A program made the position numbers and the translations under genes. This document shows positions 6,201 to 63,134 of a stretch of DNA of 64,000 nt, piece by piece (the stretch's first letter is position 1; each line of letters starts with the position of its first letter). The notes under the pieces are model-generated. The model made no database searches, was not told the origin of the DNA, and saw nothing but the letters and a program-made list of their open reading frames with translations. Source of the DNA: Apostichopus japonicus (Eukaryota; Echinodermata; Holothuroidea; Aspidochirotida; Stichopodidae); assembly GCF_037975245.1 (NCBI RefSeq), contig NC_092580.1, positions 21,190,501-21,254,500 on the forward strand, in the 5' to 3' direction.

Positions 6201-9200
6201 AAAAGAGGATGACAATTAAAGTTATGATATAATATCAAACTTCCTCTTACTTCATTAAAGTTGCTGCCTCAGTTTTTAATTGTTGTACGATGTTGAAATC
6301 TGGATGAAGCCCCTCCTGAAACAAAAACACAAGGAGAGATCCATCATAAATTTGTACTAAAAAAAAAACACTTTTTTTTCTATTTAGTTCCATAACCCCA
6401 GTACTAACTCAAAGGGCATTTAAAAAAAAAAACCCATCTGAAGTTACCTTGAATAGTCTTTTAACTGCACATTTTGTTCCGTCTCTGAAATAACCGAGAA
6501 ATACCGTTCCAAATCCGCCCTCTCCAATTTGACGGCCTCCGTCCAATAGCGATGTTGTGTTGAAGTTAGCTGTGAGTGCTGCCACTTCTCCCTGCGTAAA
6601 TTCACAGACTATCGGAAATGAGAGAATTTGAAAGTTCAAGTTCGGGTCCTTTGCTCATTGTCTTATTAAACTCTTGCGGGCTTTGCATCCCCGAGCGATA
6701 GATCATTTTTGAGCGAACTTACACAAGGATGAAACTCATGACTATTTGCCGGTCACGCAAATTTTTCATGCATTTTAATCATGTTATTTTACAAGTGAAA
6801 GTCTTAGTTCCCTTTTTCTTTAACTTTTCCTTTCTGTGCATCTTGTCAGGAACTGAATTAATGTGTAATGTGCCACATTAGCTACTTATGTCACTTTCAC
6901 TGATCAACCTAAAATGGAACCTTTTCATTGTCTATATGATATAAAATATTTCGATAAAAGTCAAAATGAATATCATTAAGAAAATTAAGAAACACAAACT
7001 TCGTCTTCAACTGGAGTGTGTACATATAATGAAGCGGGGTAAGATAACGGCTGGGCTTATGGGTAAGATAACGGCTGGGCTTATGGGTAAGATAACAGCT
7101 GGGCTCATGGGTAAGATAACGGTTGGGCTCATTGGTAAGATAACGACTGGGCTTATGGGTAAGATAACGGCTGGGCTTATGGTAATATAACGGCTGGGCT
7201 TATGGGTAAGATAACGGCTGGGCTTATGGGTAAGATAACGGCTGGGCTTATGGTAATATAACGGCTGGGCTTATGGGTAAGATAACGGCTGGGCTTATGG
7301 GTAAGATAACGGCTGGGCTTATGGTAATATAACGGCTGGGCTTATGGGTAAGATAACGGCTGGGCTTATGGGTAAGATAACGGCTGGGCTTATGGGTAAG
7401 ATAACGGCTGGGCTTATGGGTAAGATAACGGCTGGGCTCATGGGTAAGATAACGGCTGGGCTCATTGGTAAGATAACGACTGGGCTTATGGGTAAGATAA
7501 CGGTTGGGCTCATTGGTAAGATAACGACTGGGCTTATGGGTAAGATAACGGTTGGGCTTATGGGTAAGATAACGGCTGGGCTTATGGGTAAGATAACGGC
7601 TGGGCTTATGGGTAAGATAACGGCTGGGCTTATGGTTAAGATAACGGCTGGGCTTATGGGTAAGATAAGGGCTGGGCTTATGGGTAAGATAACGGCTGGG
7701 CTTATGGTTAAGATAACGGCTGGGCTTATGGGTAAGATAACGGCTGGGCCTATGAGTATGATAGGTACTATGTCATTGCAAATACTGAATGATAATTACT
7801 GAATAAATACTGATTTGTCAAAATAAGACTAAGAGAGTATGATTCACTCATGCAAAATGGGTGGATTTCAACTACTATATAACATCATCATACATCATGT
7901 ATATAAATCATTAATGAAATCTGTTTACTTTTGTTGGCATTGAATTCAGGTGTCTGCTTTCGGTATCCTGAGAAAAGGAAAGAGAGAAATTGTTGGGTTT
8001 TTTTTAAAGAATGTTTCCAAGTACAACTGCGAAAAGTATATAAGACTTTACTGGTAGGGGGATAGTGCTGATAGTCGACTCTTTCTTTTGTAACCGATTG
8101 ATCGCATAGCATAGCTCTTCTCACGGTTACTGCGGTTACTCGGTTACAGTCATGACGTCATCACTGTCATTTTTACATTGCAGAAATACAGTCAAAACAA
8201 ATCTTTCTCCCATGGTGCAATGTTTTTATTTGTTCTTTAGTGTCTCAACGTACGGTGTCTAAATCGTGTGAAGACATCTACCAAACAAAAACTGTCAACA
8301 ACTTTCAATCTACTTTCTACTACTGGTGATTAATCGATAACGACTATCCGCACTACGGGGCGATAAATGGGACAGTTTGACAAGAAAGAAATTAACATGG
8401 TAAAGTCACCTTCATAACAGATATATTAAATTCTACGGCAAATATTAATTTAATAAACTTGCCAACATACTTATGTTCTCATTTCAAACACCAACCTCTT
8501 TGTTCTGGAAATGTTCAAGTATGTTTGGAAGGTAAACTTGTAAATATTTTGTGAATGTGGGATGCATTCATTAGTTTACCCAGCTACATGTGCATACACC
8601 CTTACAAATATAACACTATGATATAATATCAATATCTGTATATATTGTTGCAAAACAAATCTGTATTTTTAACACAGATACGAAGCCCTACGGTCTATAT
8701 TCACCAATACGTTCATTACACGTTTTGAGATGATGTGATACTCCTGAAAGTGAAGATTGCTACTGACAGTATGATATCAAAATTATTTATTGGAAAACAC
8801 TGGAAGCAGTTTCATTCCTGGGATCTTTTGTCTGTGTCTTTTTACAGGAAAAAGAGGATTTTTCTTCTACAGACGATATATTCTACAAAATTTTTTAAAT
8901 TAAAATGTCAATGTTACCTTGACCAGGTAAATCACTGGATGGCACTGCGATAACATGATCTGCAAAAGAGGAAGTATAAAAGAGTTTATCAATCAACCAT
9001 GGTTTGATTGGGAATAATATAGCATCATTGTGCCCTTGGATTCAATAATCATGTAGGTATATGCCAAAAGGTAGGGGTAGTCCACTAACAAATAATATGA
9101 AACTATTCAAAACCTTTTTTTATCTTTTCTTTTTTTCATTCATCTTTTTTTCTCCCCATTTTGTGAACATGAGTGTGTGTGTCTGATAGTGTGTGTGTCT

Positions 9201-25770: not shown

Positions 25771-25843
25771 GGTCGGTTAGCTCAGTCGGCAGAGCACCGT
25801 GCTAATAACGCGGCGGTCATGGGTTCGAGCCCCTTACCGACCA
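25771..25843 (+). tRNA. tRNA-Ile (anticodon AAT)
   Basis: 73 nt, cloverleaf by hand. The acceptor stem GGTCGGT/ACCGACC is fully paired. The D-stem is GCTC/GAGC. The anticodon stem is CCGTG/CGCGG with loop CTAATAA. The T-arm has TTCGAGC, and the discriminator is A. A-box and B-box (GGTTCGAGCC) are intact and there is no intron. T-runs follow within 10 bases. It lies head to head with RRP9, about 260 bp from its start codon. Confidence 0.96.
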
Positions 25844-28800: not shown

Positions 28801-30997
28801 CACTTTAATAAATCTTTGGTTATGTAACCAAAAAAGTTTTGTTTTATGATTTTTCCCCCACACAAATGGTAGTGTATGAATGAACGGGGTTAATCGACGG
28901 TCTAGCGTGCGTTACTCACATGATTAATGCACTCCGGGTGTTAATGCTATCGCTGGATGCACTCGGGCTCCGCCCTCGTGCATCGCTTGCATTATCCCCC
29001 GATCGTGCATTAATCCTGTGAGTAACGCACGCTAGACCGTTGATTAACCCCTTATTCAAATTGGCGACCAAATCACGACACAATTCAATTTTATATATAC
29101 AAGGAACCAGTTATGATTACTTCTTTTCGATGTATAACTGGCGAAACTTGGTCAAAATTTTAGTATTATTCGCAAAAATGGTAAACATTACTTTTTTGGC
29201 ACATATTTTAGCCAGATATTCGAATTAAAACCAAATCCAACCTGATGAGGTAATTAATATATATATAATATATACCACTCATTGGCCAATACGAACAGTA
29301 GGTTTATATGAAGGAAAGATACTTTTCATTTAACCATTTGGAGGGTTTTACGTTGATTTTAGTGAGAGCCTCGTTTTTTAATTGAACATGTCCAAAAATG
29401 AAATCGTAGGTGAACTTAATATCCAGTTATGTAGTGTTGGTTCACGAGAAAAATCTTGAAATATTTAAGGTTAAGGTCCATGCGAGTCTTGAGCCTTCTA
29501 TGACAATATAAAACAGGTCCATGTTTGTCCCCGTTAACTGACTGTTGGTGACAGCAATTCAATTCTTGAAGTATTACATACGAAATTTCTTAGATGATTT
29601 TATCTATCTGTCCTTTATAAAAGATTACCGCTGTATAGGCAATAAATTCGTAACAGATAATAATCTACAAAAAAATGCATTTGCATTTTGTACAGTGAAT
29701 ATAGCGTGTTATGGGCAAAAGCTGCATGATACATCTATTGTAACTTGTCCATAGACAAACCTGGCGTTTGCATATTTGGCGCTCCTTACTGTTTTTGAGA
29801 AAGATTGCGTTGTTGATGAAGGTTCAGCAAGATGAAATATAATCCAGCAAAACGAAAATAAACGAGACGGTGACACAAAGAAACGAAAGAAAAGAGTACG
29901 GAACGTTCCAAATGATGTTTTAGCATAACATTGTACATATGTATGTAGTGCATTATACAACAAAACAGTTCAAAAAACTGTAAAAATCACCAAACTTCAG
30001 CTTCACCTGTAAAACGGGTGACACTTTTAACATCAAGTACTTCTTCGTCTAAAACTAAACTGTACAGATAATTCGTTCATACCACTATAGGTACAAATTA
30101 TTAGTATAATTATTGCGGGTATATAATGTTTCAAGTTATAATTCATAATAAAATAGTTTCGTGTCCAACTAAAGTATTTACTTGATAAGTAAATTCAATA
30201 TGAAAATCCGATGGTTAGCCAAGGCATTACATGCTCTTTTTACACCATCGTACAATGAACCTGAAACCTTGTGGTCATGGCGGTGTTAAGGTCAAGTAAA
30301 GAATATCACGAGTTTCTTCGAAAAGGAATAATACTTTTCTTAAGAGGAGTCACCATAGATAGAAGCTGGGCACAAATACCAAACAACTTTCCCCACACTC
30401 AACCCCTTACATCGATGAGGACATTTTCACTGATATGTTTTGACCATGCGCACTAGCTGAAGATGAGCAGCTGCAGTGACCTTATCTTCGGCGATGTGAA
30501 TTCAGAGGAGTAGGACCGCCATGTCATTGGACTAAAAAATCAAGCACGTAACGTTGGACCTAGACAGCAGAATGCAATGTGTTACCTTCTAGGACAACAA
30601 GTTGCTTCATTCACGAATGATAGGTAACGTGTTTGTTGTCTGCTTGATCACTGCGTCACGCTACACTCTTTGGCTCGATAGACCATGATTAGAAGTCTTT
30701 ATAAAGATTGACAAGTTTAGGGGTGCGCAGCCTATGGGCTTGACAGTGATTCGGTCAAACTCATTTTGAAGGCGCGGTCCTTTATCCTAAGCTATAGATT
30801 CGACTCCTAGTAAAATTGGTATCGGCAATGCATCAGTCTTAGAAGTAATATATATCAATGTTTATATTTCAGACATTTTGGCCAGCGTAAAATCCTCGGT
30901 GACGTCAAAGTTAAGCCATTTTGGCGATTCTCAGGCTCACGAGCTTCTCGGCGATTCAAACCTACGTCGCTCAACTATACTATAACCCCTCTTCCTC
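25861..30997. other. Intergenic region between tRNA-Ile and the NAALADase-like 3' end
   Basis: No coding exon recognised. Contents: a GAGTCC-rich degenerate repeat (about 26275-26440), C-runs at about 27142 and 27588, an old repeat fragment at about 27400-27640, and a fold-back element at 28889-29058. The NAALADase-like 3' UTR must lie in the right part; I found no consensus AATAAA close to the stop. Confidence 0.5.
28889..29058. mobile_element. Fold-back (near-palindromic) element
   Basis: Arms of about 50 bp: the left begins GGGGTTAATCGACGGTCTAG and the right is its near-exact reverse complement (two mismatches through GATTAATGCAC). A second, inner palindrome (GATGCAC...GTGCATC) sits at the centre. 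One arm-end motif (AATCCTGTGAGTAACGCACG) recurs alone at about 28764-28783. It is a typical MITE or fold-back structure, non-coding. Confidence 0.8.
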
Positions 30998-58918
<27,921 letters not shown>

Positions 58919-60256: not shown

Positions 60257-60268
60257 AAGTCATGTGGC

Positions 60269-60459
60269 ATCGCTTCTCGGCTTTTTGGCTAAGATCATGT
60301 GTAGTATCTGTTCCCTTTCGAGGGGAATGGTGATGCACACCCGACGATGATCACACAGTCACAGTCCCGATGCAAGGGGACTGGGTTTGAGAGCGGATCA
60401 GTCGTTTGGTAGTTTGGTTTCGTGCCCAGTTTCTTTCCTGGGCGACTTTTCCTTAAAAC
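60269..60459 (+). mobile_element. U2-headed retroposon, full-length copy
   Basis: The first ~45 bases match the U2 snRNA 5' end (ATCGCTTCTCGGC, then GTGTAGTATCTGTTC). The remainder has three hairpins (60311-60327, 60362-60383, 60424-60443) and no U2 Sm-site or stem IV equivalent. It ends CTTTTCCTTAAAA. Flanking direct repeats AAGTCATGTG (60257-60266) and AAGTTATGTG (60460-60469) indicate retroposition. Confidence 0.85.
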
Positions 60460-60469
60460 AAGTTATGTG

Positions 60470-63134
60470 TTTTAGCAATTTCCTTTACACGTAACGACAA
60501 CTACCGATCAAACCTTCCAAACAGAAGAAAACAAAGCTCTTATAATAACGTATTATACGAATACTCATTACGCGTTTTGAAGCTTTCGGAAACACGAACG
60601 AGCTAGGTAGCCTATAACGCGGACAAACCATATAGGTATATTAGCTGCAGCCTGTGCACGCATACTGTTAGAGTATTACTAACGAGTAACGTTATAGTTG
60701 GTGTATTAGATGATCGTGAAACGAATCAATATGGCAAATTGCAAGGCGTATATATACAATTAATTATAGACTTGACTTATGCTATAGTCCTAAGGCATCA
60801 GTTAGGCCATCATGCGATATACCGGTAATCCACGTTATGTTCCGAATGTTTCCGTTCAAAATGTCAATTTAACGTGTTGTTCAATTTGACCAATCAGTGT
60901 CCATGTGGGTATATGCTGTCACGTCCGATTTGTGATTGACAGCACGTTGTAGCATAGTCAGTCATGGCCGACTTTGGGCTTTGATTTTCCGTAAACTAAT
61001 GATGGTTTTAGCCATGGATGATTTCTTTGAAATTAAATCATTCGAACACTGGTACAGTTCATGGAACGGTCAGGAATCTAACAATTTTCACAGGTATTGC
61101 TCAATACGAAGGCAAACCGACGTGACCTATATGCATGAAATAGGGAACGTTTATAGGCGTGGTTATCATTGGATAATGTTCATCCTTTTTGATAAATGTT
61201 GTAAAATTCGAGACGTTTTTCGCACAGAATATGTTTGGTACATGTTTAATCAATGGTATGCAGGCGTCACTTTGGGGTGATATTTAACGCAATATGCTCC
61301 TTTAACGACCCAGTACACCCTTATAGATGTCCTCTGGAACATACCCTAAATACTGCACTACAAGATCAAATGGTCGCAGTTCCGCGATGTATGAGGAGAT
61401 TGGAACCGTGCAGTGTTACATATATATATATATATATATATAGGCTATATATATATATAGGCTATATATATATATATATATACTCTTTTAGGCTTTGCAT
61501 TGCGTCACTATTCCTATATGAAAGCCTCCTCTACATTCGAGTCCCTGTACGGTCGTGTCCCCGTAAAGATGGATGAACGCATGTTATTGTAGAATCATGA
61601 CTTTATGCTCATTGGCCTATTTATATATAGATATATTATATTGTTACATTGTTAATACATACAGTACACGATGAAATGACTTTCAAACATCCGTGTGTTT
61701 TTCGATATTGTGACGGTTAGGAAGTCCCTCGTTGATAAAGGAGTTGATTAATCCTTTTAGATTGAAACCTCCGACAAATTGAGCCATTGGCATTAGCCTA
61801 CCGAGATAACATCTATATATTGTCTCATTATTAGTTGAAAGCTGTCTCCATTATAATACGTTCTTGTCCTAGTTCCTGAAGGATGTGACCTATCCCCGTG
61901 GACTAGTTTATTTACATTCTAAAGCTTAAACACACACAGGTTATAACAAACGCAGATCCAGGGTGCACCGTGTGTGGGTAAACAAACCCCACCCCCTCTC
62001 TTTTCAAGACCTTACTTAGGGCCCATAAACATGCTTCAGAATGCACCATTGCACGCCAAGTTATTTTGGCAACCCAGAATCCCCTACAAGGGAAATCGTT
62101 TATTGGCCCCCTGGGTCACATAGGGTACCCGTCCTTTTGTAAAAATCCTCCGCCCGCGCCTGCTATATCACTACTAAACTATTGTATCAATGTCTGCAGA
62201 GGTTAAAGGGAAGAAAAGCGTCTCCATCAAGTCTTCATAAAGCAGTTACAACCATATGTCAGCTAATTTGGTGAAATGAGAGCGGTAACCTGTTGTACTT
62301 ATATTGGTTCGATATTACTAGACACTATAGGAGAGGGTTATACAGATCAACTGCTTCCTCCTGGCATTCCCTTGTTGAGTTCAACAGATGCTAATATGTA
62401 AGAAGAAAACTATATATTAAATCGCCCGGGAAGGGACTTCTCTTCGAGGTAATATTATTACATGTAGATCTTATATGTTGATCACATATTACATGTAGAT
62501 CTTATATTGCAAGTAAGGCACACGTTCTTGCTACAAGAACTTGGAATAGTTAAAAGACAAAGAAACATATGAAAAAATTATTTATACGTCGATTGTTTCA
62601 TGTGTTTCGATTACAATTTCAGTCCAAGCCAATGCCATTTAGATTTGCTGATAACTGATTTTGTTGCCTGCATGTCTTTCAATTAGTTCACGGGTATTTC
62701 CGGCTCGATTTTAATCATGATGGAGGAGAATTTGACAGGAGAAAACATTACTCCCCTTAAAAAAATCCCTCTCCTGTTTCTCCTTCCCCACGGCTTTCCG
62801 TTCCTTACCAAAAATAAAAAACTGGGCCGAAGAAGTTTCATGAAGAACTTGTGTTCCGGTTGTTAGGTAATATCTATTCACATGTGTGTTTTATAGGTAT
62901 GTACGAATATGCCCGTTTGGAGCTGCACTGCAGTGTATCTTCTTCAGGTTGGAAAAAGGTATTTACAAAAAAACGATAAATTCAAGAAAGAGAGTATATA
63001 GTAGTATAAAAGGCAATAAGAAATGTTAGACAAGAATCTGTCAACAGATGGAAGCAGCTGTATGCATGCCAAACGACAAAACAAGAGACTAAGTAACACA
63101 GAATAGGTTGACGTTAGCCGGGAACTGCCCCCGA
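60470..63134. other. No recognised gene
   Basis: Contains TA-rich simple repeats (61418-61482), an old repeat fragment (about 61960-62170), and a direct repeat ATTACATGTAGATCTTATAT at 62457 and 62487. The missing NAALADase N-terminal exon could lie here or beyond the window. Confidence 0.4.
61418..61482. repeat. (TA)n with GGC interruptions
   Basis: Three TA blocks separated by TAGGCTA. Confidence 0.93.

Follow-up and report, generated by a model that had tools for sequence, protein, structure and literature searches.

How does the 5' end of U2 snRNA come to head a short element whose remainder is something else? The question arises near the end of a 64,000-nucleotide stretch of the Apostichopus japonicus genome (hereafter the window), at a locus that a sequence-only reading had described as about 45 bases of U2, including stem-loop I and the GTAGTA word, joined to about 140 bases of non-U2 sequence. 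Both parts of this description hold for the element, here called copy 1 (60,269-60,459, plus strand; Table 1). The Rfam U2 model (RF00004) aligns to 60,269-60,345 with 50.0 bits (gathering score 46, E 6e-07), and at the level of single residues the likeness covers U2 nt 1-45. The body taken by itself (60,314-60,470) matches Rfam at chance level, the best scores, 14.7 and 11.4 bits, falling well short of the respective gathering scores (74 and 39), and it is therefore not U2. An alignment by cmscan of the body ACCC to the U2 3' end had raised the possibility of an internally deleted U2, which was rejected since the body alone has no U2 match. A U2 snRNA gene would comprise a full RNA of about 190 nt, an Sm site and further stem-loops, which the element does not offer: in a pattern scan copies 1 and 2 have no AU4-6G Sm site, the loose three-T matches GTTTGA and GTTTGG being all that was seen. 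Nor is it a U2 retropseudogene, which would be U2 only, full or truncated, because a constant non-U2 body follows the head in 43 copies. At its 3' terminus copy 1 reads GACTTTTCCTTAAAAC, and at the other end the dinucleotide GC (60,267-60,268) lies outside both U2 and the flanking repeat.

Table 1. Copies of the U2-headed element in the window, with their parts and flanking repeats
Feature	Position	Strand	Basis and remarks
Copy 1, left target-site duplication, AAGTCATGTG	60257..60266	+	Direct reading; best 1-mismatch repeat between the flanks
Copy 1, head: U2 snRNA nt 1-45, stem-loop I and GTAGTA, with A30T	60269..60313	+	cmscan RF00004, 50.0 bits
Copy 1, non-U2 body; 3' end is the hairpin CCCAG..CTGGG and GACTTTTCCTT	60314..60454	+	No Rfam match; constant in 43 copies
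Copy 1, short A-rich tail (AAAAC)	60455..60459	+	Direct reading
Copy 1, right target-site duplication, AAGTTATGTG	60460..60469	+	10 bp, 1 mismatch against left AAGTCATGTG
Copy 2; 183/190 alignment positions as in copy 1 (96%)	33781..33970	-	BLAST; U2 head 47.6 bits, passes Rfam gathering score
Copy 2, left target-site duplication, AGTATACTTC	33967..33976	-	CTTC common with U2 nt 5-8, boundary ambiguous by 4 bp
Copy 2, right target-site duplication, AGTATACTTC	33771..33780	-	Abuts or overlaps old copy 3
Copy 3, old, directly 3' of copy 2; clear body homology	33563..33774	-	nhmmer E 1.1e-9, profile of copies 1 and 2
Copy 4, older 3' fragment: body and tail	30335..30452	-	nhmmer E 2.5e-6 (30334-30414); 1.8e-5 (envelope 30335-30452)

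Copy 1 had been noticed as a single element. It is real, and three further copies lie in the window, one young and two old, the old pair found with a profile that reaches no better than E 0.36 when run against the reversed window. Taken alone, the copy 3 head is not significantly U2-like (360 of 4996 random segments do equally well, and Rfam gives no U2 match); we therefore rejected copy 3 as U2-headed on its own evidence and retain it through its body homology. The flanks of copies 1 and 2 are unlike each other, and each copy is bordered by a repeat. That of copy 1, ten base pairs with one mismatch (AAGTCATGTG/AAGTTATGTG), is as previously described and is weak alone, being equalled by 52 of 5000 random flank pairs; it gains weight from the exact 10-bp repeat at copy 2 (AGTATACTTC, equalled by 4/5000) and from exact repeats at 19 of 43 copies genome-wide. 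The surroundings have a GC content of 35-40% in 4-kb steps and contain fragments of animal-like genes, namely one kinase exon and one transferrin-receptor-like dimerisation exon. Elsewhere in the window there are a 24-bp minisatellite of 30 copies (7,037-7,763), a 181-bp tandem repeat of 3.2 copies (36,838-37,439) and a tRNA gene (25,771-25,843, plus strand; Rfam, 61.2 bits).

A nucleotide search of the element's own genome (671,581,487 bases in 35 contigs) returned 2370 unverified first-look candidates, 40 of which were scored, making the figure of at least 40 places a floor on copy number. Among the scored candidates, 47 matches lie at 40 places on 21 contigs, one place being the query itself: besides the query (100%) there are 39 further main matches, almost complete in length and 94-97% identical, and seven neighbouring pieces. 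At about 190 bp, non-coding and dispersed in many copies, the element is built on the scale of a SINE. The analysed set comprises 40 loci (L003-L043; L015 was dropped, being covered by L043) with 43 copies of at least 190 bits; copies that are older or shorter within the same 40 loci are left out of the counts, and the 43, as the best-scoring set, are biased to young full-length copies. Within this sample head and body have diverged from the consensus alike, at 41/1763 letters (2.3%) versus 120/5615 (2.1%). The head carries a mark of its own: 41 of the 43 copies have T at U2 nt 30 (the remaining two have C and G), where the Rfam consensus and two ordinary U2 genes from elsewhere have A. The copies begin, unbroken, at U2 nt 1 (18/43) or nt 2 (7/43), together 25/43. 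They usually end in YCTT followed by 4-11 A, with L018 (3 A before G) and L031 (no A) as exceptions. The short A-run reported for copy 1 is there (AAAAC), and what that report left out is a GTA after the A-run, present in at least 23/43 copies, tails often ending AAAGTA. At L005, L017, L023 and L027 this GTA stands wholly or partly on the right side and is absent from the left repeat, so that it must be at least partly element sequence; in other copies it belongs to the target repeat.

Target-site duplications were examined in the same 43 high-scoring copies. Exact flank repeats of at least 10 bp border 19/43, where swapping flanks between copies predicts 0.31 (13/1806), and repeats of at least 12 bp border 13/43 against 0.14 expected on the same control; with one mismatch allowed the count rises to 28/43 versus 1.38. 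Eleven of the 43 have exact repeats of just 4-6 bp, which is chance level, and the long repeats at L005_1293, L032 and L037 are extended by tail or head letters of a tandem neighbour. The duplications are of variable length, as in SINEs. A consensus drawn from 33 target sites, 21 of which start with A, otherwise shows a mild A/T preference. Together, the high-identity dispersed copies, the constant head-body fusion, the target duplications, the equal divergence of head and body and the lack of shared flanks among dispersed copies make it very probable that the element is a SINE, that is a non-autonomous retroposon, with a U2 snRNA head and an RNA that starts at the U2 cap site; the SINE-like family with an snRNA head proposed from one locus is in this sense borne out, target duplications in the 43 high-scoring copies included.

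Could such loci instead have arisen separately, as independent U2 retropseudogenes or as one-off chimeras made when a LINE enzyme jumped from the body RNA onto U2 snRNA? U2 pseudogenes occur widely, and snRNA retropseudogenes are a known class. U6-L1 chimeras figure in the reference list of PMC4476161, a paper whose table leaves U2 out. One locus even looks the part: at L009 an extra U2 piece (nt 7-23; L009:1482-1498) lies after the left repeat and before the complete head, inside a flanking repeat (CACTATGTGGtCCA, 14 bp with one mismatch, read by eye) that the automatic test missed because the add-on lies between, and this is what a template jump would leave. The reverse transcriptase would there have switched templates to a further RNA resembling U2. 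Template jumping may explain this add-on but not the whole family, as separate jumps would not yield one junction, one body and A30T in 41/43 copies, and we regard independent origins as very improbable.

Some copies lie side by side. A same-strand neighbour is found within 120 bp at 6 of the 40 loci, an opposite-strand neighbour at none (0/40). The clearest case is L005, where one repeat, GCTACTAAACTTTTTCT, stands on either side of, and between, two copies that differ in haplotype; L032, L037, L043 and the window pair of copies 2 and 3 are similar, if less clean. The simplest reading is repeated insertion at the same site, the nicking enzyme cutting again at the site that each insertion regenerates. 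L033 is unlike L005 and is a local duplication, since about 94 bp of upstream flank was copied along. Two further arrangements were seen: a head-to-tail array at L043:1247-2300, with about six copies, full and truncated, of different ages and A-run/GTA-type tail joints; and, at L014:2456-2529, a copy in which a U2 head is followed by the beginning of the body, the 3' portion being absent or replaced, which is unusual because LINE-type insertion truncates 5' ends.

A further rival is that the copies are genes for a functional chimeric small RNA rather than a selfish SINE. The predicted fold contains U2 stem-loop I, a CCC/GGGG hairpin, a central stem and a 3' CCCAG/CTGGG hairpin, and it is stable: copy 1 folds at -66.9 kcal/mol (z -2.88, equalled by 2/200 shuffles) and copy 2 at -70.3 kcal/mol (z -3.19, 0/200). 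This stability, together with the retained U2 branch-recognition sequence, speaks for function. Covariation does not: across 16 copies double changes occur at 2/23 pairs and the covariation term is unfavourable (+0.59). The three hairpins of the sequence-only reading are thus upheld as a predicted fold, while a conserved RNA structure was tried and is not supported by covariation. Other features point away from function as well, (i) the insertions are dispersed, have target duplications, share no promoter and include truncated tandem copies, (ii) head and body drift equally, and (iii) the pattern scan of copies 1 and 2 found no AU4-6G Sm site. We consider a functional RNA gene family highly implausible and retain the U2-headed SINE.

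How is such a SINE transcribed? U2 snRNA genes have an external promoter, and an upstream PSE-like promoter had been proposed as something to look for around the copies. The check went against it: in the upstream flanks of the 40 loci no promoter travels with the dispersed copies, positions -70 to -1 holding at most 0.28 bit of information and the 500-bp upstream flanks matching between or within tandem groups, with no match among dispersed copies. None of the loci examined proved to be a source locus carrying a U2 promoter. The alternative is the same SINE with an internal Pol III promoter, U2 TGGCTAAGATC (nt 18-28) serving as box A and the body supplying box B. The TGGCTAA in this segment matches the relaxed half of box A, and its position fits box A spacing for a Pol III start at nt 1; several source lineages, for which we argue below, would also be easier to explain with an internal promoter. 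According to PMC10886601, Pol III is the polymerase that transcribes SINEs. Against this, the pattern scan of copies 1 and 2 found neither a full box A nor a box B at one mismatch, so that the internal Pol III promoter expected in a SINE head is missing from the two copies scanned, and T-runs interrupt the heads of both (TTTTT in copy 1, TTTT in copy 2); the copy 2 body has another, and in each copy TTTT precedes the tail. We rate Pol III transcription as unlikely. We judge it slightly more likely than not that RNA polymerase II makes the transcripts, from a handful of source loci with a U2-type external promoter in front of them, and that the ordinary copies are promoterless and mostly silent. 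The missing Pol III boxes bar a SINE of the tRNA, 7SL or 5S type; they do not bar SINEU, whose snRNA heads are an exception to the rule of Pol III heads.

The family does not appear to descend from one gene. At the four most variable sites seven haplotypes each occur in at least three copies, and the site pairs 121/152, 121/186 and 141/186 show all four combinations, well supported (for 121/141 one combination rests on a single copy). From the seven haplotypes and the four combinations at three site pairs, several source lineages are likely, a single master gene being insufficient unless mutation recurred or copies recombined. We can sketch how the pieces might fit. Pol II source loci with a U2-type external promoter would supply an RNA made of U2 nt 1-45, the body of about 140 nt and an A-run, often followed by GTA; LINE enzymes recognising the 3' body and tail would then copy it into the genome, presumably by target-primed reverse transcription. 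As to the fusion itself, we conjecture that it began with the insertion of a LINE 3' end into a U2 gene immediately past nt 38-45, beside the target site of the LINEs Utopia and Keno; with a short duplication, this would place the U2 promoter and nt 1 to about 45 ahead of a tail derived from the LINE. A partner LINE was not found in the window, where a motif scan gave two weak stretches, one of them in a Penelope-like fragment; an open frame at 54,084-54,719 (plus strand) with LPKVHKLP and LADD motifs recalls a Penelope-like reverse transcriptase, and it has no Pfam match. The whole scenario, namely an echinoderm SINE of independent birth, several of whose source genes have U2 promoters read by Pol II and whose copies a site-preferring LINE inserts over and over at the same sites, is one that we put forward tentatively, as possible rather than probable. 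Were it true, snRNA-headed SINEs would be a recurrent class outside the Pol III rule.

Whatever its origin, a young family in a farmed animal is a test bed for the transcription of a SINE without an internal promoter. It may also matter for annotation: copies 1 and 2 pass the Rfam U2 threshold, meaning that an annotation can mistake such heads for U2 genes. For A. japonicus the genome paper gives 996 splicing snRNAs (Rfam/Infernal) and SINEs totalling only 159,644 bp (PMC10344927), and we infer from these figures that the former count may be inflated by the U2-headed family.

Is the family found elsewhere? In public collections four patterns (two for the head-body junction, one for the body, one for the U2 head) gave 0 matches in viral contigs; a search of phages likewise gave 0. 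Among genome contigs the pattern search hit two filed as prokaryotic that carry ordinary U2 (L001 and L002). These two U2 genes of other organisms, one complete and one cut at nt 76, continue as ordinary U2 past nt 45, and their contigs, filed under prokaryotic MAGs, look like eukaryotic contamination. Within 5.6 kb L001 has, besides U2, U1, 5S rRNA and three histone stem-loops.

Several known systems resemble the element in part. SINEs headed by tRNA, 7SL or 5S sequences share with it the order of small-RNA head, body and tail, the target duplications and, as we suppose here, the dependence on a LINE; they differ in that the head of the element is an snRNA and that internal Pol III boxes were not found in copies 1 and 2. 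The snRNA retropseudogenes and snRNA-L1 chimeras covered by PMC4476161 likewise carry retroposed snRNA sequence with target duplications, whereas the element is one fixed fusion amplified as a family. Then there are the LINEs Utopia and Keno, which insert in U2 genes at nt 38/39 (PMC4640811). That paper records Utopia in sea urchins and in a starfish, and occasional tandem insertion in one wasp family. The insertion site of Utopia and Keno falls 7 nt before the point where U2 ends in the element; unlike it, they are protein-coding LINEs residing in U2 genes, while the copies described here lie outside U2 genes.

The closest counterpart, already named in the sequence-only reading, and rightly, is SINEU. 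These SINEs with heads derived from U1 or U2 were reportedly described from crocodilians by Kojima in 2015, with repeated 5' addition of U1 or U2 pieces said to mark SINEU-1; they are reportedly mobilised by a Tx1-clade LINE, with a preference for a Mariner target. Like them, the element has a head from the 5' end of U2 (nt 1-45; RF00004 50.0 and 47.6 bits in copies 1 and 2), a non-U2 body and probably LINE-type retroposition, and the 5' U2 add-on at L009 resembles the SINEU-1 additions. It differs in its echinoderm host, in tails often ending AAAGTA and in repeated insertion at one site. Among the titles that our literature search listed, with Repbase and most subscription papers outside its scope, there was no snRNA-headed SINE from an echinoderm and none outside the SINEU work. 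An echinoderm family would mean either that fusions of snRNA and SINE arise repeatedly or that they are far older and wider than the crocodilians. The SINEU class itself is already known.
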